NCBI GenBank assembly: GCA_947074105.1
Contig: CAMTON010000022.1
Span: 1 to 46,440 of the forward strand
Reading direction: 5' to 3'
Source of the DNA: an uncultured Bacteroidales bacterium
GTDB taxonomy: Bacteria > Bacteroidota > Bacteroidia > Bacteroidales > JAUNSR01
DNA length: 46,440 nucleotides
Numbering within the stretch: the stretch's first letter is position 1; each line of letters opens with the position of its first letter. The position numbers and the translations under genes are program-made. The notes under the pieces are model-generated. The model was not told the DNA's origin, searched no databases, and saw only the letters and a list, made by a program, of their open reading frames with translations. This document shows, piece after piece, positions 8,746-30,367 of the stretch.

Positions 8746-11235
8746 ATGAAAAACAGAAAACTACTCCTTTTACTGCCGGCACTTATTGCCGGTCCTTTAT
8801 CCGCCGAAATCATACCTTATCTGCCTGTAAAGGTCTCACTTGAAGAGGTGATAGGCAATCAGGATTTTTTTAATGTCAATCTTGATTCAAATTTCACTAT
8901 TGAGTTTGAATCGGAAGGAAATACATCGGTCAGACTCTGCAACAGTGAACTGAACGGGATTGAATATGATATCGAAATTCCCGGAAAATACAGATTTGCA
9001 AACAATGAGGGTAAGATTAATGTCTATCGTGACAATAAGTTTGTTGAGCAGAAGACTATCTCTTCTCTTGAATTCCCTGAATTATTTGCTGAAAACGACA
9101 GCCGTGAAAACCTGACAGGAATATATTCCGTATCAAATCTTTTCGGAAATCCCGGTTTTGAAGATATTGTTGAGGGAGGAGCTGAAGCAAACAATCAATA
9201 TATACCGGCAATATGGGAATGTACGAATTTCTATACCGGTACCCGTTCGCGTGTAAATACCAATTATCAGAACAACCTGTCCGGTCTTGAAGGTCGGGGA
9301 GCTCTTATGCATCACGGTTATACCGACGGAGAAGGAAAATATTTCTTTCAGAAAATCGACGGCGATAAATTCTCTGAAAATAATAAATACCGTGTTCAGT
9401 TCAGAACCTGGTCACATTCTAACGCATACGGAAAATATACGGCAAGGATAGGCTATTCCGCAAACGATAATTCATTGGCGGAATATAGCTGGAGCCAGAC
9501 ATCAACCGCATACAACTGTAAAGATCAGACATTTGATTTCGTCTATAATACGGATGGTGAATCAAAGGATATTTATTTCACTGTCGAACGTATCGGAGAA
9601 ACGATTGGTCATTTCGACAGAATGCTTATGTTCGGAACTTTTGAAGATGCACCTTCTTCATCCGGAATATATGCGGAAAATATAGCAAATATTAGTTATG
9701 ATGCTTCGGGAGCTTTTGCGCCGGTTGTCATTATGGATGATAATGATTATTACGACCTTACATCTTATATAAACGATGCAGCCGTAACTTCCGCTTCCGC
9801 ATGGTCGGGGGGTACTGTAGAAATAAAAAGCGGAGAATCCTTTGCCGGAGCTCCTGACAGCTATTATCTTGATAAATGGAATTCTTCAGGATTTACTTAC
9901 GATGCATATCAGAATATAAAGGATCTTCCTACAGGGAAATATATGTTGACTGCAGCTGTTCGTGCCAACAGCGACGACTTCTATGTATATGCCGAATGTG
10001 ATTCCAGGTCATATACGACACCAATAATCAACAATGGTAATACTGACGGTGAACTCGGAATTGGATGGAACCGTGTTGAGATACAGGATATCATTGTTAA
10101 AAACGGAGAGATGAAAATAGGAGTGGGAGGAACTACGGCTGACAACGGACGCTGGTTAAGTGTTGACGACTTCCGTCTTTACTATTTCGGTGCCGACAAC
10201 TCTATTCTTAAAGAGACTCTTCTGGAACTTATTGAGGACGCTAAGAAATTCGATCTTTCCTCTGTACCATCTGGCATAGCCCAGGAGCTTGCTGATGCCA
10301 TAAAAGCGGCTGAAGAGGTAGCCGATGAAGAAGAAGCTATACGTGAAGCGGAAGTTGTACTTCTTGATAAACTTTCGCGCGCTAACTCTTATGTTGTTTA
10401 TTATGTTGATCTTGACTATTCGATAAGAATGTTCGAATCTCTTGAAAACAGATGGTTTACAACTATTATTGCGGAAGCCAGAAATATTTATGAACTGGAA
10501 TCTCCGACTCTTGACGAAATTAAGAATGCTCATGATCAACTGCTTGGTAATGTAGTTAGTATCATGGACAATTTCTCAGGATATAATTATACCGGCAAAA
10601 TCGTCAATCCTACCGTAGATTCGGAATCAGGATGGACATTTGAAAATGTAAACGGACAGCATAAGACTATCACCGGACAGCATTATACTTATGATGAGAT
10701 GAACCGTTATCTTGACTCCTGGAATTCTACTGCAGGTGCACTTGATTATAATGCTTATCAGATTGTAGAACTTCCGGAAAACGGATTGTATATTCTTTCT
10801 GCCGCAGCAAGAGCATCAGGTGCAGGAGGTTTTATCTATGCTAATGATGTTAAGAGAGAGATACCGGCAAACGGTGACGTAGATGGTGAACTTGGTGAAG
10901 GCTGGAGTTTTGTGAGAGTGCCGGTTGTGGTTACTGACGGAACTCTTAAACTTGGAGTAAGAACTATCGTTGATCTGTGGACAGGTAAATGGATAAGCGC
11001 CGACGATTTCACATTGACAAAATATCCTTATGATGACATTTTCCTTTCGGTGGAAGAAAAGGAGACAGAATCTGTAAGAATATATTCTGAGAACGGAAGA
11101 ATAAGAGTCGAAGGAAGAACAGACTTCAGCATTACAAATATTAGCGGTATGAATATGCCACAGAATATGAATCTTGCAAAAGGACTTTATTTTGTTACTG
11201 TAGACAACAGGACTTATAATGTAGTAGTGAGATAA
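8746..11235 (+). CDS. Secreted multi-module protein with galactose-binding-like repeats and T9SS-like tail
   Basis: This 829-residue exported protein opens with signal peptide MKNRKLLLLLPALIAGPLSA, probable cleavage after A20. It has three beta-sandwich, galactose-binding-like regions at about 133-300 (starting NPGFED, like CBM4_9), 335-485 and 615-760. The last two are clear internal duplicates: both share YLDxWNS, a YxAYQ segment, GELG-GW and a W-S-DDF ending. Between them (485-605) is an acidic helical stretch resembling FIVAR repeats. The last ~60 residues (ENGRIRVEG, AKGLYFVTVDN, NVVVR) resemble a type-A T9SS sorting tail. I infer a surface or secreted carbohydrate-associated protein; no catalytic domain is recognised. 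It is flanked by terminators and therefore monocistronic. Confidence 0.75.
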   Translation: MKNRKLLLLLPALIAGPLSAEIIPYLPVKVSLEEVIGNQDFFNVNLDSNFTIEFESEGNTSVRLCNSELNGIEYDIEIPGKYRFANNEGKINVYRDNKFVEQKTISSLEFPELFAENDSRENLTGIYSVSNLFGNPGFEDIVEGGAEANNQYIPAIWECTNFYTGTRSRVNTNYQNNLSGLEGRGALMHHGYTDGEGKYFFQKIDGDKFSENNKYRVQFRTWSHSNAYGKYTARIGYSANDNSLAEYSWSQTSTAYNCKDQTFDFVYNTDGESKDIYFTVERIGETIGHFDRMLMFGTFEDAPSSSGIYAENIANISYDASGAFAPVVIMDDNDYYDLTSYINDAAVTSASAWSGGTVEIKSGESFAGAPDSYYLDKWNSSGFTYDAYQNIKDLPTGKYMLTAAVRANSDDFYVYAECDSRSYTTPIINNGNTDGELGIGWNRVEIQDIIVKNGEMKIGVGGTTADNGRWLSVDDFRLYYFGADNSILKETLLELIEDAKKFDLSSVPSGIAQELADAIKAAEEVADEEEAIREAEVVLLDKLSRANSYVVYYVDLDYSIRMFESLENRWFTTIIAEARNIYELESPTLDEIKNAHDQLLGNVVSIMDNFSGYNYTGKIVNPTVDSESGWTFENVNGQHKTITGQHYTYDEMNRYLDSWNSTAGALDYNAYQIVELPENGLYILSAAARASGAGGFIYANDVKREIPANGDVDGELGEGWSFVRVPVVVTDGTLKLGVRTIVDLWTGKWISADDFTLTKYPYDDIFLSVEEKETESVRIYSENGRIRVEGRTDFSITNISGMNMPQNMNLAKGLYFVTVDNRTYNVVVR

Positions 11236-12599: not shown

Positions 12600-13718
12600 A
12601 TGGATTATAACTCTTCAGATTTTAAGATATTAGTTGTCGATGATATCGACTCTAATATCTTATTATTGAAAATTATACTTGAAAAAGAAGGATACGTTGT
12701 AGAAACGACAAACAAGGGAGCTGAGGTTTACGAAATTGCAAAAGTAAGCCGCCCTGACCTTATACTTCTTGATGTGATGATGCCCGATATGGGAGGATAT
12801 GAAGTGGCAGACAAATTAAAATCAGACTCTGCGACTGACAGTATCAGTATAATTTTTATCACTGCCCTTACGGGAAGCAAGAATATAATCAACGGTTTCC
12901 GTCACGGAGGAAACGACTATGTATCAAAGCCTTTTAATAAAGATGAGCTTCTTATAAAGATAAAACATCAGCTCTCTCTTAAAAAGGCGACAAGAATCAT
13001 CGAAGAAGAAAATATAAAACTACAGAATACGATTCGTATGAGAGATACGATGTATTCTGTTATCGCACATGACCTGCGCTCACCGCTGGGTTCTCTTAAG
13101 ATGACACTTAATATGCTCTCTATGCTTCTGCCGGTCGATAAGATAGGCGAGGAGATGAGCACTATGCTGAATGATGCCAATAAAACGGCCGAAGATCTGT
13201 TCGGACTTCTCGACAATCTTCTGAAGTGGACTAAAAGCCTTACCGGAAAACTTAATGTAGCGTTCAATAACAGCGATATAGTGCCTGTCGTACTGGGAAT
13301 AAAACAGATATTCGATATTGCAGCAAAACAAAAAGATATTGAGATAAAAGTCACGACACCCGCATCTGCCGTGGCATACATGGATATAGATATGATCAAT
13401 ACGGTGTTGAGAAATCTTGTCAGCAATGCCATAAAATTCAGTAATCATAATACGGAAATAGAAATTACAGTTACAGATAACAGCGATTCGGTAAAGCTCT
13501 GCATTAAGGATCACGGAATAGGAATGACCGATGATATACGTCAGAAACTTATTGATGAAATATCAGTGACGACTTTCGGAACCGATAATGAAGACGGATC
13601 GGGACTGGGACTTCTGCTTTGTCGTGATTTTATAAAAAAGAACAACGGAGAGTTCAGTTTTATGACTATTGAGGGAGAAGGTTCGGAATTTTGTTTTGAG
13701 TTAAAGAAACATATATAA
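12600..13718 (+). CDS. Soluble receiver-histidine kinase
   Basis: This 372-residue protein has an N-terminal receiver and a kinase core in one chain and no membrane segment, so it acts in the cytosol. The receiver (about 8-125) has D14/D15, phosphoacceptor D58 in LLDVMMPD, T88 and K110. A helical linker leads to HisKA with H157 in IAHDLRSPLG. The HATPase domain shows NLVSNAIKFS, DHGIGM and GSGLGLLLC. All catalytic residues look intact. It starts 13 bp after the UXS stop, so is probably co-transcribed with it. Upstream sensor kinases could phosphorylate D58, and it may pass phosphate to the next gene's regulator; both are inferences. Confidence 0.9.
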   Translation: MDYNSSDFKILVVDDIDSNILLLKIILEKEGYVVETTNKGAEVYEIAKVSRPDLILLDVMMPDMGGYEVADKLKSDSATDSISIIFITALTGSKNIINGFRHGGNDYVSKPFNKDELLIKIKHQLSLKKATRIIEEENIKLQNTIRMRDTMYSVIAHDLRSPLGSLKMTLNMLSMLLPVDKIGEEMSTMLNDANKTAEDLFGLLDNLLKWTKSLTGKLNVAFNNSDIVPVVLGIKQIFDIAAKQKDIEIKVTTPASAVAYMDIDMINTVLRNLVSNAIKFSNHNTEIEITVTDNSDSVKLCIKDHGIGMTDDIRQKLIDEISVTTFGTDNEDGSGLGLLLCRDFIKKNNGEFSFMTIEGEGSEFCFELKKHI

Positions 13719-13753
13719 TAGTTTGAGATATAAATTTTATGCTTAAATGTAAT

Positions 13754-13761
13754 TATCTTTG
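13754..13761 (+). promoter_or_regulatory. -7 box for the response regulator-PHPT transcript
   Basis: TATCTTTG matches TAnnTTTG, 36 bp after the kinase stop and 119 bp before the regulator's ATG. The nearest upstream TTTG (13722 region) is too far at about 28 bp. If real, the regulator and downstream EPS genes can be transcribed separately from UXS and the kinase. Confidence 0.5.
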
Positions 13762-13837
13762 TATCAGTAAAATAGGTTAGGATAAATATATATAAAAGTG
13801 TATTATTTAATTAATAGACACATTATTATATTTAATG

Positions 13838-13853
13838 CTCCTTCAAAAAGGAG
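13838..13853 (+). promoter_or_regulatory. Leader hairpin holding an AAGGAG in its 3' arm
   Basis: CTCCTT-CAAA-AAGGAG forms a perfect 6-bp stem with a 4-nt loop in the leader of the response-regulator gene, 27 nt upstream of its ATG. The 3' arm equals a Shine-Dalgarno core. It is too far from this ATG for normal ribosome binding, so its role may be structural. Confidence 0.5.
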
Positions 13854-13879
13854 AAGTATAAGACGGGGATTTTGAAGTT

Positions 13880-14254
13880 ATGCAAAACGAGAAGAAGAAC
13901 ATATTAGTGCTTGATGATAAAGAGACAATTGCAAAGATCATCACAATATATATGCAGGATGATTATAATATAACCTGGTTTGATAATGGTGAAAAAGGAT
14001 TTGAATGGATAAAATCGGGCAATACTCCCGATCTTGTTATTTCGGATATCAGAATGCCCGTGATGCGCGGAGATGAATTTCTGAGAGTTATGAAGAATCA
14101 TGAATTATTCAGATTTATTCCAATAGTGATTCTTTCGGGAGAAGACAGCACTTCGGAAAGAGTTAAGCTCCTGTCGGAAGGTGCAGAAGATTATATTGTG
14201 AAGCCATTCAATCCGCTGGAATTAAAGATTAGAATAAAAAAGATTTTAGGTTGA
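13880..14254 (+). CDS. Single-domain response regulator
   Basis: This 124-residue protein is a complete receiver with no output domain. Conserved residues are D12/D13, phosphoacceptor D56 in VISDIRMP, S86 in VILSGED and K108 in VKPFNP. It resembles CheY/Spo0F-type relay or allosteric proteins. The last four bases, TTGA, overlap the next gene: its stop TGA is nested with the TTG start of the pseudoreceiver-transferase. This suggests translational coupling and near-equal amounts. Likely partners are the kinase encoded upstream and the fused receiver-like domain downstream; the latter is inference. It has its own candidate promoter at 13754. Confidence 0.9.
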   Translation: MQNEKKNILVLDDKETIAKIITIYMQDDYNITWFDNGEKGFEWIKSGNTPDLVISDIRMPVMRGDEFLRVMKNHELFRFIPIVILSGEDSTSERVKLLSEGAEDYIVKPFNPLELKIRIKKILG

Positions 14255-15429
14255 AATCACAGTTGTTGTTTATAGGTAAGAACGAATCTCACATTTCTCA
14301 TTTTAAAAATATACTTGAAGGGAATCTGATAGTAAATCCGCGATATGACATGAGTGATATCACGGGACACTATACTGAAAAAAATCATATATGTTTCTGG
14401 GAAATAGATGCGGCCGATGATTGCATTGAGGAAATACGATTCCTTAAAAGCAGTTGTCCGGGTTTTTGCGTCGTAGCCGTATCTCACGGCTTTGACAGAA
14501 CCACCGGAATGAAACTTCTTAAGGCCGGTGTCAGGGATTATGTTTCTCCTGAAGTGACAATGGAGGAAATAAACCGTCTTATAGCTTATCTCGAAAAGGA
14601 GAGGGAGGCGCATCCGGATACGGAGAAAGTGGAAATGAAGAATATCAGGATTTTCCGTCTTCCTTTATGGAAAAGGATATTCGACATAGTTTTTTCTTTT
14701 TGTGCCATTCTGCTTCTTTTGCCGTTATTTATCATTACCGCTTTTGCAATCCGCATGGAAAGCAAAGGGAAAATAATATATTCTTCAAAAAGAGTCGGCT
14801 CCAATTTCAGGATTTTCGGGTTTCTTAAGTTCCGCTCTATGTATGCCGATGCAGACAGACGTCTTAACGAATTTTCCGCTTTAAATCAGTATCAGCCGGA
14901 AGAAGATATGACTGAGCCGGAAGGAACGGATATCACTCGTCTGATAAAAGGGGAAATTTCAATTGAAGATCTTAATCTCAATGATGAGACTCTGCTTATA
15001 GCCGACGATGATATGATAGATGAAGCGCGTTTCATGCATAATAAGCGTATACGTCAGGATAACAGTTTTGTGAAACTGGAGAATGATCCGAGGATTACAC
15101 GTACCGGAAGGTTTATCAGAAAATACAGTATCGATGAGCTGCCTCAGCTTTTCAATATACTGAAAGGAGATATGTCGGTAGTGGGCAACAGGCCTTTGCC
15201 GCTTTATGAGGCGGAGCTTCTTACAAAAGATGAATATATCGACCGTTTTATGGGTCCTTCGGGACTTACGGGATTATGGCAGGTTGAAAAGCGTGGTTCA
15301 AACGGACGGCTATCTGCAGAAGAACGAAAAATGCTTGACATCAGATATGCGCATGAGTTTTCATTTCTGTTTGATATAAAACTTATACTTAAGACATTCA
15401 CGGCATTCGTACAGAAAGAGAATGTCTGA
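14251..15429 (+). CDS. Degenerate receiver fused to initiating sugar-phosphate transferase (PHPT)
   Basis: This 392-residue protein would transfer a sugar-1-phosphate from a nucleotide sugar to undecaprenyl phosphate, the first membrane step of EPS synthesis. Residues 1-120 look like a receiver fold, but its acidic pair is replaced by GKN (9-11), the phosphoacceptor region reads FWEID (49-53), and the Lys of the KP motif is absent (VSP, 98-100). A membrane helix spans about 143-167. The PF02397 core shows KFRSM (193-197), NDPRITRTGRFIRK, DELPQL (295-300) and GDMSVVGNRP (306-315). About 50-60 extra acidic residues lie between KFRSM and NDPRI. The TTG start overlaps the upstream stop; the next ATG would cut off the first strand. 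Confidence 0.85.
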   Translation: MKSQLLFIGKNESHISHFKNILEGNLIVNPRYDMSDITGHYTEKNHICFWEIDAADDCIEEIRFLKSSCPGFCVVAVSHGFDRTTGMKLLKAGVRDYVSPEVTMEEINRLIAYLEKEREAHPDTEKVEMKNIRIFRLPLWKRIFDIVFSFCAILLLLPLFIITAFAIRMESKGKIIYSSKRVGSNFRIFGFLKFRSMYADADRRLNEFSALNQYQPEEDMTEPEGTDITRLIKGEISIEDLNLNDETLLIADDDMIDEARFMHNKRIRQDNSFVKLENDPRITRTGRFIRKYSIDELPQLFNILKGDMSVVGNRPLPLYEAELLTKDEYIDRFMGPSGLTGLWQVEKRGSNGRLSAEERKMLDIRYAHEFSFLFDIKLILKTFTAFVQKENV

Positions 15430-15470: not shown

Positions 15471-16652
15471 ATGTTGTTTTTTACGGAATCTCTTTTCTGG
15501 ATATCTGCGTTCATCATATTTTATACTTATATAGGATATGGTGTGATTCTGTTTTTGCTCGTCTTTATTAAAGAGAGGTTTTATCCTGATTTGCCTGCAG
15601 AGGTAGCCGATAATGATTTACCGTCGGTTACTCTGTTGATCGCAGCATATAATGAGGCGGATATAATAGAGGAAAAGATGAAAAACTGCCGCTCACTGAA
15701 GTATCCTGAAGAAAAATTGTCAGTTCTGTGGGTGACAGACGGAAGTACGGATGAATCAAATGAGATACTTAGCCGTTATCCTGAAGTAAGTGTATGTTTT
15801 TCACATGAAAGAAAAGGTAAGACAGCTGCCCTTAATCACGGAATGACAATGGTGAATACCGATTATGTGGTTTTTACCGATGCGAATACTATACTTAATG
15901 AAAATGCGATTACTGAACTTATCGGATGTTTTGCCGATAAAAGAGTCGGTTGTGTGGCAGGAGAAAAAAGGATTTTTGTAAAGGATAAAGATGCGGCGTC
16001 CTCGGGAGGAGAAGGCCTTTACTGGAAATATGAGTCTAAACTGAAAGAACTTGATTCAAGACTTTATTCTGCGGTTGGGGCAGCGGGCGAACTTTTTGCA
16101 ATAAAGAGTTCTTTGTACAGAGATATGCCTGAAGATACCTTGCTTGATGATTTTATGCTTTCTATGCATATTGCTTCGCAGGGATTTGTCATCAGATATT
16201 GTGCTGAGGCTTATGCCTATGAGACCGGTTCGGTTGATCTGCTTAATGAGCAGAAAAGAAAAGTAAGAATAGCGGCGGGAGGTCTTCAGTCTATATCAAG
16301 ACTTGGCGGATTGTTTAATATATTCCGACATGGTATTCTTAGTTTTGAATTTGTTTCTCATCGCGTATTGAGATGGACCGTTACTCCGGTTCTGTTTTTT
16401 ATGGCTTTGCCTCTTAATATATATCTTGCCATAGCAACAGATGAACGTATTTATCATCTTTTGCTTATGATGCAGGCACTGTTTTATCTTATGGCTTTTG
16501 CAGGGTATTGTCTAAGAGATAAAAAGATAAAAAGGAAATCGGTGTTTGTTCCTCTTTATTTCCTTTTTATGAATCTTAATGTGATAAGAGGTGTTGATTA
16601 CCTTAGAAAAAATAAAGGTCTCGGTTTCTGGGAAAAGGCAGGAAGAATCTGA
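15471..16652 (+). CDS. Membrane glycosyltransferase family 2, processive-type
   Basis: This 393-residue inner-membrane GT2 has an N-terminal helix (about 8-32), a cytosolic GT-A domain and two or three C-terminal helices (about 300-370). Motifs in order are DGS (D90), TDAN (D137, the D-x-D equivalent), LDDF (D226/D227, catalytic base region) and QKRKVR (261-266) in the place of Q/RxxRW. The layout is that of PgaC/NodC/cellulose-synthase-like transferases that polymerise or extend beta-linked sugars. The Q/RxxRW motif is incomplete because it lacks Trp. It lies 41 bp after the PHPT gene and 22 bp before the flippase gene. Donor and acceptor are unknown. Confidence 0.85.
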   Translation: MLFFTESLFWISAFIIFYTYIGYGVILFLLVFIKERFYPDLPAEVADNDLPSVTLLIAAYNEADIIEEKMKNCRSLKYPEEKLSVLWVTDGSTDESNEILSRYPEVSVCFSHERKGKTAALNHGMTMVNTDYVVFTDANTILNENAITELIGCFADKRVGCVAGEKRIFVKDKDAASSGGEGLYWKYESKLKELDSRLYSAVGAAGELFAIKSSLYRDMPEDTLLDDFMLSMHIASQGFVIRYCAEAYAYETGSVDLLNEQKRKVRIAAGGLQSISRLGGLFNIFRHGILSFEFVSHRVLRWTVTPVLFFMALPLNIYLAIATDERIYHLLLMMQALFYLMAFAGYCLRDKKIKRKSVFVPLYFLFMNLNVIRGVDYLRKNKGLGFWEKAGRI

Positions 16653-16674: not shown

Positions 16675-18102
16675 ATGTCGGTAAAAAAGCAGGTAGGTAA
16701 AAGTGTATTCTGGAGTGCTGTCGAGCGGTTTTCCGTTCAGGGAGCAGGCTTCGTACTGGGGATAGTGATCGCAAGAATGCTTTCTCCGGAAGATTATGCC
16801 CTTATCGCGATGCTTAATATATTTATGGCACTTGCACAGTCGGTGACGGATTGCGGATTCGGTAATGCTCTTATTCAGAAAAAAGACAGAACCGATGCAG
16901 ATTATACTACTGTCTTTTATTTTAATATAGTAGTTTCGTTTATACTTTACGGAGCATTATATCTTTCTTCGCCGATTATTGCTTCTTTTTATAATCAGAC
17001 GGACCTTGAACTGATAACCAAAGTTGTGGGACTTTCTCTGATTATTAATTCTTTCGGAATAGTACAACAGGCAAAACTGACTGTAGAACTTGATTTTAAG
17101 CGACAGGCAAAGGCATCGCTTACAGCAGTGGTGATAAGCGGCGTTGCGGGACTTGTTATGGCTTATTCCGGCTTTGGAGTATGGGCTCTTGTTGCTCAGA
17201 CTCTTCTTAATAACTTTATAAAAGTTCTGCTTTTCTGGATATATGCGAAATGGAAACCTCAGTTTGTTTTCTCTTACGGATCCTTTAAGGAACTTTTTTC
17301 ATTTGGATCCAAACTTATGGCCTCGGGACTTCTGCATACTGTTTATGTAAATCTTTATACTCTTATTATAGGTAAGAAATTTATGCCGGCTGATCTTGGT
17401 TTTTATAACAGAGCATTTCTTTTTGCTCAGTTCCCTTCCAATAATATTACGAATATCCTTATCCGTGCAATATATCCTATTCAGTGTTCACTGCAGGATG
17501 ACAGAAAAATGCTTGAAAGTTCTTTTATAAAATATCTCAGAATGTCATGTTTTATAATATTCCCTTTGATGCTTGGTCTTTGCGCTCTTGCCGAACCGCT
17601 TGTAAGAGTCGTTCTTACCGAAAAGTGGCTGGGTGTCGTTCCGCTTCTCAGAATATTATGCATATCATTTATGTGGGATCCTGTGATGAGACTCAATAAC
17701 AGTATGCTTCAGGTAAGAAAAAGGTCGGATTATATTCTGTATGCGGAGGTGATAAAAAAGATATGTGCTTTTATAATTCTGTTTTCTACGATAAGTTTCG
17801 GCATCGAAGTGATGTGCATAGGTCTTATTTTATATTCCTTAATTGATGCAGGAATTATAATATTCTATTCCCGTAAAGTGATTTCCTGCGGATATAAGGA
17901 TCAGATCATAAGTATTTTGCCTGTATTGATGATTTCTGTTCTTACAGGAAGCGGAATGTATATTTCTACATTTTTCTTTTCCGCTTCTTTAATCAAATTA
18001 ATAGGCGGAAGTGTTATAGGAATAATGATTTTTATGACTCTTTCCTTAGTTTTCAGAATACAGGAATTAAGAATAATAAAAGAGTTAAGAGCTGCGGCAT
18101 AA
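16675..18102 (+). CDS. Wzx/WzxC-type polysaccharide flippase
   Basis: This 475-residue MOP-superfamily membrane protein has about 12-14 hydrophobic helices. It would flip undecaprenyl-linked repeat units from the cytosolic to the periplasmic face. Typical WzxC-like features are the N-terminal amphipathic start (KKQVGKSVFWSAVERF), IARMLSPEDYALIAM and DCGFGNALIQKKD, followed by a mid-protein GFYNRAFLFAQFP segment. Length matches WzxC/AmsL/SpsL members. It is adjacent to initiating and elongating transferases, as expected for Wzx/Wzy-dependent export. The substrate is inferred only from context. Confidence 0.9.
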   Translation: MSVKKQVGKSVFWSAVERFSVQGAGFVLGIVIARMLSPEDYALIAMLNIFMALAQSVTDCGFGNALIQKKDRTDADYTTVFYFNIVVSFILYGALYLSSPIIASFYNQTDLELITKVVGLSLIINSFGIVQQAKLTVELDFKRQAKASLTAVVISGVAGLVMAYSGFGVWALVAQTLLNNFIKVLLFWIYAKWKPQFVFSYGSFKELFSFGSKLMASGLLHTVYVNLYTLIIGKKFMPADLGFYNRAFLFAQFPSNNITNILIRAIYPIQCSLQDDRKMLESSFIKYLRMSCFIIFPLMLGLCALAEPLVRVVLTEKWLGVVPLLRILCISFMWDPVMRLNNSMLQVRKRSDYILYAEVIKKICAFIILFSTISFGIEVMCIGLILYSLIDAGIIIFYSRKVISCGYKDQIISILPVLMISVLTGSGMYISTFFFSASLIKLIGGSVIGIMIFMTLSLVFRIQELRIIKELRAAA

Positions 18103-18196: not shown

Positions 18197-18880
18197 ATGG
18201 ATAAGAAAAAGATAGTGATCCTTACCGGCGCGGGAATAAGCGCTGAAAGCGGACTTGCGACATTCAGATCAGACAACGGATTATGGGCAAACCATAAGGT
18301 TGAAGATGTAGCCACTATTGAAGGATGGCATAAGAATCAGAAACTTGTTCTTGATTTCTATAATCAGAGAAGAAGAGAGCTTAAGACAACCTATCCTAAC
18401 GATGCGCATAAACTGCTCGTTGATCTTGAAAAGAAATATGATGTTACCGTTATAACTCAGAATGTTGATGATCTGCATGAAAGAGCCGGCTCGACAAAGA
18501 TCATTCATCTTCACGGAGAACTTACTAAAGCTTCGGATGAATATAAGCATCAGGTGAATGATATCGGATATGAAGATATCAATATCGGAGATAAGATAAA
18601 TGATACTCAGTCAAGACCATGGATAGTATGGTTTGGAGAAGCAGTTCCGGAAATGGAAAATGCCATTACAGAAGTTGAAAAAGCAGATATATTTATCGTT
18701 ATCGGCACTTCTCTTAATGTTTATCCTGCTGCTTCGCTTTTGCATTATGTGAAAAATGAAGCAGAAGTCATACTTATTGATATCAATCAGGTAAGAGTAA
18801 ATCGTCCTTATAAATTCATAAATAAAAAGGCAAGTGAAGGAGTAAAGGAACTGGTGGATGAGTTGATGAACATATATTAA
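18197..18880 (+). CDS. Zinc-free Sir2-family NAD-dependent protein deacylase
   Basis: This 227-residue cytosolic protein would remove acyl groups from lysines using NAD+. GAGISAESG at 11-19 and FR (23-24) form the NAD site, TQNVDDLHERAG includes N89 and D91, and H106 in HLHGEL is the catalytic base. Y55-x-x-R58 is the class III signature linked to succinyl/malonyl-lysine binding. The protein contains no cysteine at all, so the usual four-Cys zinc site is missing. Related zinc-free forms occur in Bacteroidetes as I recall them. It is 95 bp downstream of the flippase gene and 246 bp from the TolC-like gene, inside the EPS locus; a role in EPS control is only speculative. Confidence 0.88.
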   Translation: MDKKKIVILTGAGISAESGLATFRSDNGLWANHKVEDVATIEGWHKNQKLVLDFYNQRRRELKTTYPNDAHKLLVDLEKKYDVTVITQNVDDLHERAGSTKIIHLHGELTKASDEYKHQVNDIGYEDINIGDKINDTQSRPWIVWFGEAVPEMENAITEVEKADIFIVIGTSLNVYPAASLLHYVKNEAEVILIDINQVRVNRPYKFINKKASEGVKELVDELMNIY

Positions 18881-18989: not shown

Positions 18990-19126
18990 ATGCCTAATTG
19001 ACTTTTTGATTAATAATCACCATAATGTTTATTTTTTGTGCTTGATTAATAGCATGAATTTTTGAAAAGAATTAAAGAATGAAGACCCTGCTTTTGTTGT
19101 CAGGGGCCTTTAAAATAACTATTTAT

Positions 19127-19981
19127 ATGTATAGAAGTGTGCTGAGGAATATCTCATTATGTTTTTTCCTTTTTATTTTTTCTTCTTTGTTTTCGCAGAC
19201 CGGCGAAAGAAAACCTATCGGTTTTACAAAAGACGATATTGATCTTAACGATTATGATTCTTCAAAGATCAACGGTGAATATGAATTGAATACGGGATTT
19301 AAATCTCCCGATTCGGCAGGTAATACCTTGTCAATGGATCTTGAAAAACTTAAACTTCCCCCTTTGAATGTTTTTCTTGAATCGGTTTATGATCATCCGT
19401 CGACTCAGGTTTATGAGACAATGCGTGAAGAACAACGTGCTCAGAGTAAAATGACAAAAGAAGAATGGCTTAATTATCTGAGACTGACAGGACAGTATCA
19501 GTACGGACAATGGTCATCGCTTTCTTCCAATTCTGCATCAGATATTCCGCTTTATTACGTAGGCAACGGAAAACGTCAGCATATGTATAACGTCGGGGTC
19601 ATGGTTTCAATTCCCCTTGGAGATCTTTTCGGTAACAAGCAAAAGAATAAGGTGGAATCGGCAAGATTGCGTCAGATAGAATATCAATATGATATATCTG
19701 TAGAAGAACGTAAGCTTAGAGTTCTTGAAGCATATAATGAGGTTCTTTTGCAACTTGCAGTATTGAAAGCTAAAGCTGATGCAGCAGCTTTATATAATGC
19801 ACAGATGAAAATTTCAGAACAGGATTTCATAAACGGTAAAATATCAATCATTGAGTTATCTCTTGAAAGAAGCCGCAGAACCGACGCAATTGTAAAGTAT
19901 CAGGAAGGAAAAGCATCATTACAGAATGCTATCACACTTCTGGAAATGCTTACTAACGTAAGGATTCTGACCCGTGAATAA
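19127..19981 (+). CDS. Short TolC-like outer-membrane channel protein
   Basis: This 284-residue exported protein carries one outer-membrane-efflux (OEP) half rather than the usual two (family about 420-480 residues). I chose the ATG at 19127 because it puts a basic n-region and a hydrophobic core directly before FSQTGERK, a good signal peptide; an in-frame ATG at 19079 would place 16 residues ahead of it. The first ~80 mature residues are low in structure. About 95-170 includes a beta-like stretch (VGVMVSIPLGDLFG), and 170-280 is the long helical pair typical of TolC (EERKLRVLEAYNEVLLQLAVL). It directly precedes the Wzc/GumC-like gene, so export of the polymer is the likely job. Confidence 0.72.
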   Translation: MYRSVLRNISLCFFLFIFSSLFSQTGERKPIGFTKDDIDLNDYDSSKINGEYELNTGFKSPDSAGNTLSMDLEKLKLPPLNVFLESVYDHPSTQVYETMREEQRAQSKMTKEEWLNYLRLTGQYQYGQWSSLSSNSASDIPLYYVGNGKRQHMYNVGVMVSIPLGDLFGNKQKNKVESARLRQIEYQYDISVEERKLRVLEAYNEVLLQLAVLKAKADAAALYNAQMKISEQDFINGKISIIELSLERSRRTDAIVKYQEGKASLQNAITLLEMLTNVRILTRE

Positions 19982-20018
19982 CAAAAATATTAACACACTT
20001 GAATTAAATTAATTAGAC

Positions 20019-22190
20019 GTGAATAAGGATATAACTTTATACATCACCCGTTTCCTTTACCGCATAAGATACCGTATTCTTTTCGGAAGTCTTATCGCGA
20101 CATTATGCGTGGCATATTTCTCAAAATATATGTCACAGAAATACACCGTACAGACTTCAATATATACAGGCATAGGTTCGGCAACGGGATTGTCGGACGA
20201 AAGACCGGGATATGTTGAAATCAATAATATGTTTGATAATATTATCAATCTTACAAAAGCGAAAGGTGCACTTGAAAAAGTATCGGTAAGACTTCTGGCT
20301 CTAAATCTTGTAAGCGGAGATGAAAAGAAGGACAATCTTTATATAACGGCAGATAATTACCGCGAACTTCAAAGTATAATACCTGAAGATGTGCGTAATC
20401 TTATAGATATTACATCCGCAGATAAAACAGCCGATAATCTTCTTAAATATAAAGAAGATATGCCCGGCAATTTCCTTTATACTTTATTTTATGATAAGAC
20501 AAGCCATTACGGTTATGAGTCGCTGAAAAAAGTAATTGTAAGAAGAATAGGAAACAGTGATATTATTGATATTTCATATACGTCTGATGATCCGGGAATA
20601 GCACTTAATACTGTAAAGCTTATCACAGAGGAGCTTTCTAATTCATATGAAGGATTTAAATATAAATCTTCAAATGAAGTTGTTGCTTATTATGAAGAAC
20701 AGCTTTTAACGGTGAAAAGCCGCCTTTCTGTTCTTGAAGATGACCTGACTCGGTTTAATATCGAAAACGGAATTATCAATTATATCGAGCAGACAAAAGC
20801 TATAGCCATTTCATATACCGATTATGAAAACCGTCTCAGCGAAGTAAAACGTGATTATGAAAGTTCGACACGTCTTCTGAAGGAACTTGAATATCAGATG
20901 GGAGTAAGAAGCAACCTTCTTAAATCTAACGCAGAGTTTATAGCTATGCTTGACACTCTGTCTTCAAGTAATGCAAGAATAGCGGAAATAGAGATGTTCA
21001 GCACGGAAGAAGCTATTGAAAACAATCTTGAACTTAAGAAATTTAAAGAAGATCTTGCAGGCGCGGAAAAGAAAATATCCGGTATTTCTGATGAAATGAA
21101 CAGATATAAGATTTCAAAAGAAGGTGTTGCTATTGAAGAGATGGTGAACAAATGGCTACTTGAACTTATAAAAAATGAAAAGGCAAAAGCAGAGCTTAAA
21201 GTGCTAAAGGAAAGAAAAGAACAGTTTGTTGAACAGTATAAATCATATTCTCCCGTAGGCGCAGAAATAAATAAAAGAGAGCGAGAAATCAGAGTTCTGG
21301 AAAAATCTTACCTTGAAATTCTTCATGGTCTTAATGTTGCAAAACTTAAACAGAAAAATTTACAGCTTTCGAGCGCTACACTTGATGTAGTTTCTCCTGC
21401 TTCTTTCCCTCTTAAGAGTGATAAAAGCAGACGCATGATACTGCTTCTTGCAGCATTTTTTGGAAGTATCCTTTTTATAATTCTTATTTATCTTCTTATA
21501 GAACTTCTGGACAGAACTCTGAGAGATACACACCGCACAAAACGATTGACTTCGGTTTCTGTAATGGGAGTCTTTACAGGTATTGGCGGTATGAAATATA
21601 ATGAATTTCCGGAAGAATTTCACAGAGCGTGCGCTTCGAATATGAGCAACAGAATAATAGACATGATGAGAAAAGATTCACCGTTTATTATGAATGTATT
21701 CAGTGTTGATGAGGGAGAGGGGAAAAGTTTTATTTCAGAATCTCTTATAAATATATTCACTGAGAAAAATATTAAAACAGAATATTTCAAAGCGAATGAA
21801 GATTTCAATTCTGATCTTAATTATACAACTGCAAAACATATAGTTTCGGTTATCGGACGTCCTCTTAAAGATGATACAAACATTGCAGTTATAGAACATC
21901 CGGCTCTTAATCGTTCCACAATACCTTCCGGTCTTGTCATCAGCGCAGATCTGAATATTGTGATAATGAATGCGGAAAGAGTATGGACAGAAAGCGATCA
22001 GATTTATCTTGATCTTCTGATTTCAAAATCAGATAAAAGCAGACTTTTTATCTGTCTTAATAATACGACGGGAGAGGTTGCCGAAAGTCATATCGGACAG
22101 ATACGTTCATTAAAACATCTGAGCAAAATGGCATATGACTTTCTTAATCTCGGCATAACGTCATCAAAAAACTCCATAGAGAAAAAATAA
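20019..22190 (+). CDS. Wzc/GumC-like chain-length and export protein with degenerate kinase domain
   Basis: This 723-residue inner-membrane protein belongs to the polysaccharide co-polymerase group. TM1 is at about 18-36, then a long periplasmic coiled-coil region, a PVGAEINKRE-type segment and TM2 at about 471-493. The cytosolic ~200 residues resemble a BY-kinase. Walker A is recognisable as DEGEGKS near 566-572. The Walker A' aspartates expected after the next strand are replaced (EYFKANEDFN), the Walker B position reads VIEHP in place of a D-x-P type motif, and there is no C-terminal Tyr cluster. Kinase activity is therefore doubtful. The start is GTG at 20019, 37 bp after the TolC-like gene; the Wzy gene follows 7 bp later. 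Confidence 0.85.
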   Translation: MNKDITLYITRFLYRIRYRILFGSLIATLCVAYFSKYMSQKYTVQTSIYTGIGSATGLSDERPGYVEINNMFDNIINLTKAKGALEKVSVRLLALNLVSGDEKKDNLYITADNYRELQSIIPEDVRNLIDITSADKTADNLLKYKEDMPGNFLYTLFYDKTSHYGYESLKKVIVRRIGNSDIIDISYTSDDPGIALNTVKLITEELSNSYEGFKYKSSNEVVAYYEEQLLTVKSRLSVLEDDLTRFNIENGIINYIEQTKAIAISYTDYENRLSEVKRDYESSTRLLKELEYQMGVRSNLLKSNAEFIAMLDTLSSSNARIAEIEMFSTEEAIENNLELKKFKEDLAGAEKKISGISDEMNRYKISKEGVAIEEMVNKWLLELIKNEKAKAELKVLKERKEQFVEQYKSYSPVGAEINKREREIRVLEKSYLEILHGLNVAKLKQKNLQLSSATLDVVSPASFPLKSDKSRRMILLLAAFFGSILFIILIYLLIELLDRTLRDTHRTKRLTSVSVMGVFTGIGGMKYNEFPEEFHRACASNMSNRIIDMMRKDSPFIMNVFSVDEGEGKSFISESLINIFTEKNIKTEYFKANEDFNSDLNYTTAKHIVSVIGRPLKDDTNIAVIEHPALNRSTIPSGLVISADLNIVIMNAERVWTESDQIYLDLLISKSDKSRLFICLNNTTGEVAESHIGQIRSLKHLSKMAYDFLNLGITSSKNSIEKK

Positions 22191-22197
22191 ACAGAGA

Positions 22198-23670
22198 ATG
22201 GAATTCTTAAGATATCAAATTAATAAAATGATCAACCCGGTAAATATTGTTTTATCGGGTGGTCTTTTATTGATAATTCTCTCTCTACTTCTTGGAAAAC
22301 CTATTGTTTTCATAACGGCCATAGGAATACCAATGGCATTGATATGTCTTATCGTATCATTCAGAAAACCTGTATTTCTGTTTTATCTTACCTTCATTCT
22401 CAACTATTACATAATCGGGATTACAAGATACACACCTCTGACTGGCGTAAGTTATCTGATGGATATATTGATTATAACCATTCTTTTCATCCTTATTATC
22501 AGATCCGGAATATATAACGATATCGACTGGTCGGGGCTGAAAACAAATATCCTGTTTACAGGAATGTCAGTATGGATGCTTTACTGTTTTTTTGAACTGC
22601 TTAATCCTACTGCACACTTTGGTGCATGGATAACCAACAGAGGTCTTGCCATTAACGGATTTCTTATAACTGTTGTCACTACTGTTCTTCTTGTAAAACG
22701 CAGTCATCTTAAAAATATACTATACATATATTCGTTTCTTACTCTCACTGCAATAATAAAAGTATTTATACAGAGATTTATCGGATGGGATGAATATGAA
22801 ACAATATGGCTTAACAGCGGAGGCGGAATAACTCATTTAATACACTCCGGAATACGTTACTTCTCATTTTTCTCGGATGCAGGAAACTTCGGCTCCAATA
22901 TGGGATGCGCGGGAGTGATTCTCGGAATATCAGGGTTTTATTCAAAAAACAGATACAGTAAGCTATTATTTATTTCTGTTTCTCTTCTTTCATTCTATGC
23001 AATGATGCTTTCCGGAACGCGAGGTGCGATTTTCGTTCCGATCGGAGGGATGGCTTTATTTATAATTCTGAGCCGCAATATAAAACTGATGGCAATAAGT
23101 ACACTTGCTTTTGCCATGCTTTTCGGATTTTTCGCTTTCACTACTATCGGGGAAAGCAATCCTCAGATCAGACGAATGAGAACGGCATTTTCCCCAAATG
23201 AAGATGCTTCATATAAAGTGCGAAAGGAAAACAGAAAAGTTCTTGCGGAATACCTTCAGTATCGTCCTTTCGGAGAAGGAATAGGGCTTGCCGGAGTAGA
23301 GAATCAGAAATTCTCAAAACGTCTTACAACAATTATTCCTCATGATTCAACTTATGTGAAGATATGGGTTGAGACAGGAATAACAGGTCTGATAGTTTAT
23401 TTCGGAATTCTGCTGAGTGCCATAATATACTGCTCATATCTTATTCTTTTTAAGATAAAAGATAATGAAATAAGAGGATATCTTGCCGCCATATTATGCG
23501 GAATTGCAGGACTTCTTCTGAGTGCATACGGAAATGCTTTCTGGGGTCAATATCCGACAAGCATAATCGCTTTTACCGGTTTTGCTCTGATATTCAACGG
23601 TAAGAAGATTGATGCGGATAAATCGGAAACTTCCGGTAAAGAAGATAAGAAATATGAACTTCCCTTCTGA
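22198..23670 (+). CDS. O-antigen ligase/polymerase family protein (Wzy/WaaL type)
   Basis: This 490-residue membrane protein has about 11-12 helices and a large periplasmic loop. The PF04932 region is marked by MLSGTRGAIFVPIGG and by the loop segment PHDSTYVKIWVETGITGL with its conserved His. In a locus containing Wzx and a co-polymerase, the most likely role is Wzy, linking repeat units in the periplasm. Transfer to lipid A core cannot be excluded because Wzy and WaaL look alike in sequence. It starts 7 bp after the Wzc-like gene and its last ~20 residues are charged and cytosolic. Confidence 0.86.
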   Translation: MEFLRYQINKMINPVNIVLSGGLLLIILSLLLGKPIVFITAIGIPMALICLIVSFRKPVFLFYLTFILNYYIIGITRYTPLTGVSYLMDILIITILFILIIRSGIYNDIDWSGLKTNILFTGMSVWMLYCFFELLNPTAHFGAWITNRGLAINGFLITVVTTVLLVKRSHLKNILYIYSFLTLTAIIKVFIQRFIGWDEYETIWLNSGGGITHLIHSGIRYFSFFSDAGNFGSNMGCAGVILGISGFYSKNRYSKLLFISVSLLSFYAMMLSGTRGAIFVPIGGMALFIILSRNIKLMAISTLAFAMLFGFFAFTTIGESNPQIRRMRTAFSPNEDASYKVRKENRKVLAEYLQYRPFGEGIGLAGVENQKFSKRLTTIIPHDSTYVKIWVETGITGLIVYFGILLSAIIYCSYLILFKIKDNEIRGYLAAILCGIAGLLLSAYGNAFWGQYPTSIIAFTGFALIFNGKKIDADKSETSGKEDKKYELPF

Positions 23671-29607: not shown

Positions 29608-29639
29608 TTTGTTTTTATTAGAGAAGTTAAATATTTTTG
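29608..29639 (+). promoter_or_regulatory. Bacteroidetes-type promoter for the Crp/Fnr gene
   Basis: TTTG (29608-29611), 20-bp spacer, TATTTTTG (29632-29639): a full match to TTTG-N19-21-TAnnTTTG. Transcription would start near 29646, so the start codon must be the ATG at 29660, not the in-frame TTG at 29609. Confidence 0.65.
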
Positions 29640-29659
29640 TTACAAATAAGAAGATAGAT

Positions 29660-30367
29660 ATGAGCGATATGTATGACTCAATCCTCAGATTACCAATATT
29701 TTTGGGGTTAAATTCGGCAACTTTGACATCATTGTTGGAAAAAAGTGCCATTCAGTTTTTGAAATACGTAAATGACGACATTATAGTAACCAAAGGAGAA
29801 GATTGCACTCATCTAAAATTTGTAGTTAGCGGAAAGATAAGAATAGATAATGAGGTTGTAACAGGTAAAGTAAATATATGCGAAGAGTTTGATGCACCAA
29901 ATATCATTGCGCCGGATTATCTTTTCGGCAGAGACACCTATTATCCATATAATGTTACTTCAGTAGGAGAAACAAGCATAATGCAGATATCAAAGACAAC
30001 TTTTATCAATGTTATGATGCAGCATGAAATCTGTCTTATCAATATGCTTAATCTTACCTCCAATCGATCTCAAAACACGATGAATAATCTCTCCTTCATG
30101 TCAGCATCCGATATGAAGGAAAAACTTTCACGTTGGATACTTAATCTGACAAATAAGCAGGGAAAAAATATTCAGATCAAATGTAAACATAAGGATTTGT
30201 ATACATTTTTCGGAATGCAGCGTTCTGTTTTCATAAATGTACTTAATGATTTGCGTGACAATGAAATCATTGATTACAACGGTTCTTGTATAAAATTGCT
30301 TGACAGATATGCCTTAAAGGAGCTCTGTAATGATGATATAGGAACTTATATTGAAAATAATTGGTAA
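29660..30367 (+). CDS. Crp/Fnr-family transcriptional regulator
   Basis: This protein of about 235 residues has a cyclic-nucleotide-binding-like beta barrel (about 15-125; DIIVTKGEDCTHLKFVVSGKIRI) and a C-terminal winged helix (about 155-220; KHKDLYTFFGMQRSVFINVLNDLRDNEII). No Cys cluster like that of Fnr is present, and the barrel lacks an obvious cAMP-phosphate Arg motif, so the ligand is unknown. The ATG at 29660 is chosen because a well-formed promoter ends at 29639. Targets are unknown. It is followed by lysS after 85 bp, which has its own -7 box. Confidence 0.87.
   Translation: MSDMYDSILRLPIFLGLNSATLTSLLEKSAIQFLKYVNDDIIVTKGEDCTHLKFVVSGKIRIDNEVVTGKVNICEEFDAPNIIAPDYLFGRDTYYPYNVTSVGETSIMQISKTTFINVMMQHEICLINMLNLTSNRSQNTMNNLSFMSASDMKEKLSRWILNLTNKQGKNIQIKCKHKDLYTFFGMQRSVFINVLNDLRDNEIIDYNGSCIKLLDRYALKELCNDDIGTYIENNW

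Follow-up and report, generated by a model that had tools for sequence, protein, structure and literature searches.

Introduction

The closest described system is that of Myxococcus xanthus, in which a single-domain response regulator, EpsW, acts directly on the initiating transferase EpsZ (Schwabe et al., mBio 2025, PMC12802240). Phosphorylated EpsW binds and stimulates EpsZ, a direct activation supported by proximity labelling, heterologous activity and modelling, and the authors expected the principle to be wider (PMC12802240). EpsZ itself is one of the large monotopic phosphoglycosyl transferases (monoPGTs), whose catalytic domain follows a bundle of four membrane helices and a cytoplasmic DUF. 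Small monoPGTs fused to a receiver domain have also been noted, in the sequence network of O'Toole et al. (2021; cited in PMC12802240). Degenerate receivers are also found in TadZ/CpaE, where they sit on a pilus-assembly protein.

Here, we analysed a window of 46,440 nucleotides from an uncultured Bacteroidales bacterium (GCA_947074105.1, contig CAMTON010000022.1). Its unit at 12600-15429 has in common with EpsW/EpsZ a stand-alone receiver encoded in a polysaccharide locus, a monoPGT starting a Wzx/Wzy pathway and no DNA-binding output; a kinase phosphorylates EpsW and would do the same to the window receiver, and for both systems direct allosteric control of the first step is proposed. Unlike EpsZ, however, the window enzyme has neither the membrane bundle nor the DUF and carries a pseudo-receiver instead, and the kinase is a soluble REC-HK rather than the chemosensory DifE that serves EpsW. 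The catalytic domain, with its DX12P re-entrant helix and D-E dyad, is that of the PglC-type small monoPGTs (PF02397), from which the window enzyme differs by the extra N-terminal pseudo-receiver and by a long insertion spanning roughly residues 205-275. As far as the citing description goes, the fusions of O'Toole et al. (2021) share with it a receiver-type domain on a small monoPGT, whereas TadZ/CpaE, the nearest solved folds to its N-domain and likewise degenerate, belong to a different kind of host protein. The initial annotation had proposed an undescribed system, a claim that yields to the principle already published for EpsW/EpsZ (PMC12802240). The novelty lies in the Bacteroidota version: a monoPGT free of a TM bundle and bearing its own pseudo-receiver in place of bundle and DUF; the principle itself has been known, in one system, since late 2025. 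A literature search turned up no account of the Bacteroidota unit, which is weak evidence, most subscription papers being outside its reach.

Results and Discussion

Three open reading frames were confirmed on the forward strand: a soluble REC-HisKA-HATPase histidine kinase (12600-13718), an intact stand-alone receiver, or single-domain response regulator (13880-14254), and a 392-aa monoPGT with an N-terminal pseudo-receiver (14251-15429; PF02397, AF2, Foldseek). In the kinase, Pfam recovers REC, HisKA and HATPase (E-values 1e-26, 2e-6 and 6e-20, respectively), with D58 at 12771-12773 and H157 at 13068-13070. The stand-alone protein matches REC at 2e-23, its D56 (14045-14047) being conserved in the alignment alongside D13, S86 and K108. 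The last two genes share four nucleotides, TTGA (14251-14254), read from the sequence as the TTG start of the transferase (14251) and the TGA stop of the receiver (14252-14254); this start is sound, since translation of relatives starts at the corresponding position and the preceding stop is just a few codons away. No DNA-binding domain was returned by a Pfam scan of kinase, receiver and transferase. The initial annotation had named these frames, domains and residues (kinase D58 and H157, receiver D56, TTGA-overlapping transferase) and the lack of a DNA-binding output among the three genes, all of which was verified here; it had also seen a receiver in roughly the first 120 residues of the transferase, with which structure prediction, Foldseek and hhalign agree.

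The catalytic domain of the transferase (residues 141-387, 14671-15411) matches PF02397 at 191.8 bits against a curated cut-off of 27 (E 1e-56) and resembles PglC by Foldseek (6.6e-11), with WbaP also returned. Its re-entrant helix motif (D145-x12-P158) and D295-E296 dyad, both verified in the window, are invariant across 47 sequences. It does not belong with the large monoPGTs of WbaP/EpsZ type: a receiver fold directly precedes the catalytic domain, with no four-helix TM bundle or cytoplasmic DUF, and the EpsZ equivalog (NCBIfam NF041877) scores 158.6 bits against a cut-off of 800 through the catalytic domain alone. The insert at about residues 205-275 (14863-15075) is modelled by AF2 with low confidence; long and poorly conserved, it separates the D-E dyad from the substrate motifs. 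A Cys-rich, potentially metal-binding motif (CPFC..C, CNNC..C) lies within it in some relatives (L086, L091 and L092, for example).

The N-domain (residues 1-120, 14251-14610) is more cryptic. Pfam gives no receiver at the N-terminus of the window enzyme, just TadZ_N at 0.09, so we turned to profile-profile comparison. With hhalign, 28 N-domains align to 33 linked receivers over 118 columns (probability 93.7, E 2e-7), and in a search of the PDB with the N-domain profile receivers rank first (E 5e-4). The AlphaFold model, built with 47 relatives, shows the N-domain as a complete (beta-alpha)5 fold (pLDDT about 90), from which a weak linker leads to the PglC-like catalytic domain; Foldseek places the atypical receivers of TadZ/CpaE first (3e-5) and many RECs next. 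The best non-catalytic folds thus being receivers, a CoA-binding-like domain or a WbaP-type DUF was ruled out. In some relatives the N-domain passes PF00072 outright, at 1.7e-7 and, in L197 from another lineage of the phylum, at 1.5e-15, the latter pointing to descent from a true receiver. The active site, on the other hand, has decayed. Of 129 N-domains, 89 have Glu and 12 have Asp where a receiver has its phospho-Asp, the acidic pair is lost in nearly all and the Lys is mostly gone; the window enzyme retains the receiver fold and lacks phospho-Asp, acidic pair and Lys. Given that Glu51 (14401-14403) replaces the Asp and that the acidic pocket and Lys are lost, residues 1-120 are, by model and alignment, a degenerate pseudo-receiver. 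At two loci this domain seems disrupted while receiver and catalytic domain remain: in L018 (1501-2703) it is apparently broken by stops, and in L082 (5305-6672) apparently split into its own ORF.

Linkage to the partner gene is strict. Among N-domain transferases of Bacteroidales and other Bacteroidota, an intact receiver lies directly upstream in 86/89, and the remaining three are at a contig edge or at most 272 bases from one, which makes 86/86 readable cases; further class samples add 42/42 and a phylum sample 5/5, all raw counts uncorrected for relatedness. Transferases of Bacteroidia without the N-domain, comprising a 269-aa form and the small and large TM forms, have an upstream receiver in 0/22 (0/19 and 0/3). 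Chance adjacency is ruled out by these 133 linked cases against none of the 22 controls. Moreover, the phospho-Asp is retained in 135/138 linked receivers and the Lys in 137/137, from which conservation we conclude that the receiver partner of N-domain transferases is kept functional. The initial annotation had let its case depend on a receiver-like N-terminal fold and on the genes being linked in relatives; the predicted fold is that of a receiver, and linkage is indeed wide across Bacteroidota. Outside Bacteroidia, a receiver adjoins a transferase without N-domain in L083, L091, L202, L204, L206 and L207, and N-domain-less transferases with no upstream receiver occur in L208 and L214-L217. 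The former loci suggest that the receiver-transferase pairing may be older than the N-domain, or partly independent of it. In a Rikenellaceae locus (L100, 5401-6912), two separate receivers precede a transferase without N-domain, an arrangement that looks as though the domain fused elsewhere were here encoded on its own.

The REC-HK adjacency is repeated in a sister genome (L007/L136), and the orthologue often lies within the same polysaccharide locus in Bacteroidales. In a sample of 295 genomes of the order Bacteroidales, 14 have a strong kinase orthologue (in one case a fragment cut by the end of its contig) and 14 a close N-domain transferase, 13 of the latter also having the kinase; in 10 of these 13 it is on the contig of the transferase, less than about 20 kb away. 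The hypergeometric p for this co-occurrence (1.6e-18) pre-dates the finding of the fragment and ignores phylogeny, and is to be read loosely. Orthologues occur in 30/30 Bacteroidales genomes reached via the loci and were absent from the six other Bacteroidota genomes examined. In Bacteroides and Prevotella, the kinase is unlinked to the receiver-transferase pair, which we count against our preferred explanation. Other lineages have other kinases upstream, such as a HATPase-REC-Hpt hybrid immediately ahead of the receiver or the large hybrid kinases of L083, L085, L086 and L093; overall, a kinase lies within 2.2 kb upstream in 15/75 loci.

Taken together, a receiver gene directly before the transferase, a dead receiver copy within the enzyme and the recurrence of this pairing across the phylum indicate that Bacteroidota probably exert on/off control of slime production at the initiating enzyme itself. 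We favour, with reasonable though far from full confidence, a post-translational switch for the synthesis of extracellular polysaccharide, in which the kinase-phosphorylated receiver acts directly on the co-encoded monoPGT. D56 of the receiver would be phosphorylated by a histidine kinase, which in the window is the soluble REC-HK and differs in other lineages; the phosphorylated receiver would then bind the monoPGT, most likely through the pseudo-receiver and possibly touching the catalytic domain too, and so change, probably raise, its activity. The first sugar phosphate transfer to undecaprenyl phosphate, and hence the use of a shared carrier lipid, would be set without transcription. In this scheme we infer the phosphotransfer, the physical binding, the direction of the effect and the substrate sugar. 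The initial annotation had likewise suggested that the committing step may be controlled directly and not by way of transcription, which we judge likely given the linkage, the lack of a DNA-binding output and the EpsW/EpsZ precedent. It had further proposed that the regulator may pair with the pseudo-receiver. Receiver and N-domain of L061 were co-folded as a single chain, with the in-frame stop modelled as Gly (a device, with no read-through claimed); each domain folds well, but at a pTM of 0.51 their packing is not confident, in a model blind to dimers, to the catalytic domain and to phosphorylation. Mean-field DCA on 115 receiver/N-domain pairs gave top inter-domain scores that overlap those of shuffles. 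In a mirror-tree comparison of 115 sequences, the distance matrices of receiver and N-domain remain correlated once the catalytic domain is accounted for (partial r 0.47), which is suggestive at most, because neighbouring genes share history. The outgroup receivers beside N-domain-less transferases further imply that the N-domain cannot be the sole docking site everywhere.

Could the receiver serve another protein? Single-domain receivers are commonly relay components (PMC12802240), and the kinase, itself a REC-HK, could belong to a longer relay; the receiver might then serve a distant transcriptional regulator, as an intermediate in its phosphorelay or as a phosphate sink, and be adjacent to the transferase only since the output is the polysaccharide operon, with the N-domain a structural leftover. 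We consider this unlikely: shared regulation poorly explains strict adjacency to one enzyme type despite changing kinases and neighbourhoods, or why 0/22 of the other Bacteroidia transferases have an upstream receiver. The pseudo-receiver might instead be a homodimerisation or localisation module in the manner of TadZ/CpaE, replacing the membrane bundle and DUF of large monoPGTs, with some other protein as the target of the upstream receiver. The ranking of TadZ/CpaE as best solved-structure matches, the missing phosphorylation site and the fact that large monoPGTs function as dimers (PMC12802240) all suit such a module; yet it would leave the intact receiver beside every such transferase unexplained and sits poorly with the receiver/N-domain distance correlation (partial r 0.47), a soft measure, so that we give it a rather small probability. 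Regulation could also be direct but negative, the phosphorylated receiver holding the transferase inactive, as the data fit either sign and the N-domain Glu may mimic a permanently active partner; with EpsW, the sole studied analogue, being an activator (PMC12802240), this is very improbable.

More tentatively, and with somewhat less than an even chance in our estimate, direct action of the receiver on the monoPGT may extend to a Bacteroidota-wide valve in which a heterodimer of phosphorylated receiver and transferase pseudo-receiver gates entry into polysaccharide synthesis, the kinases varying by lineage and gut Bacteroides and Prevotella being included. Such control bears on the open question of how undecaprenyl phosphate is divided, in bacteria, between the building of peptidoglycan and that of surface polysaccharides. 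If the proposal is true, kinase regulation of the committing enzyme would be a common Bacteroidota rule, Bacteroides fragilis and Prevotella included, and not a myxobacterial oddity; it would be testable at once in genetically tractable strains, and would be a rare instance of a receiver whose partner, built into an enzyme, is its own dead copy.

Downstream, on the same strand, the polysaccharide locus continues with a family-2 glycosyltransferase (15471-16652; Pfam), a Wzx-type flippase (16675-18102; Pfam, NCBIfam), an outer membrane efflux (OEP) protein with a chain-length determinant (19079-22190; Pfam, and NCBIfam TIGR03007 at 8e-13) and a Wzy_C polymerase/ligase-like protein (22198-23670; Pfam). 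No Wza-type export protein was found among the window genes scanned; the polymer may therefore leave through a channel of efflux type. The pair of OEP protein and chain-length determinant also follows the transferase in L018, L082, L083, L089 and L091. Between flippase and outer membrane protein lies a gene for a Sir2-family NAD-dependent deacylase (18197-18880). Upstream of the locus, 8746-11235 encodes a protein of 829 aa in which a C-terminal sorting domain of type IX secretion is weakly recognised and, just past the last glycosyltransferase of the locus, a Crp-family regulator (29609-30367) is a possible transcriptional input.
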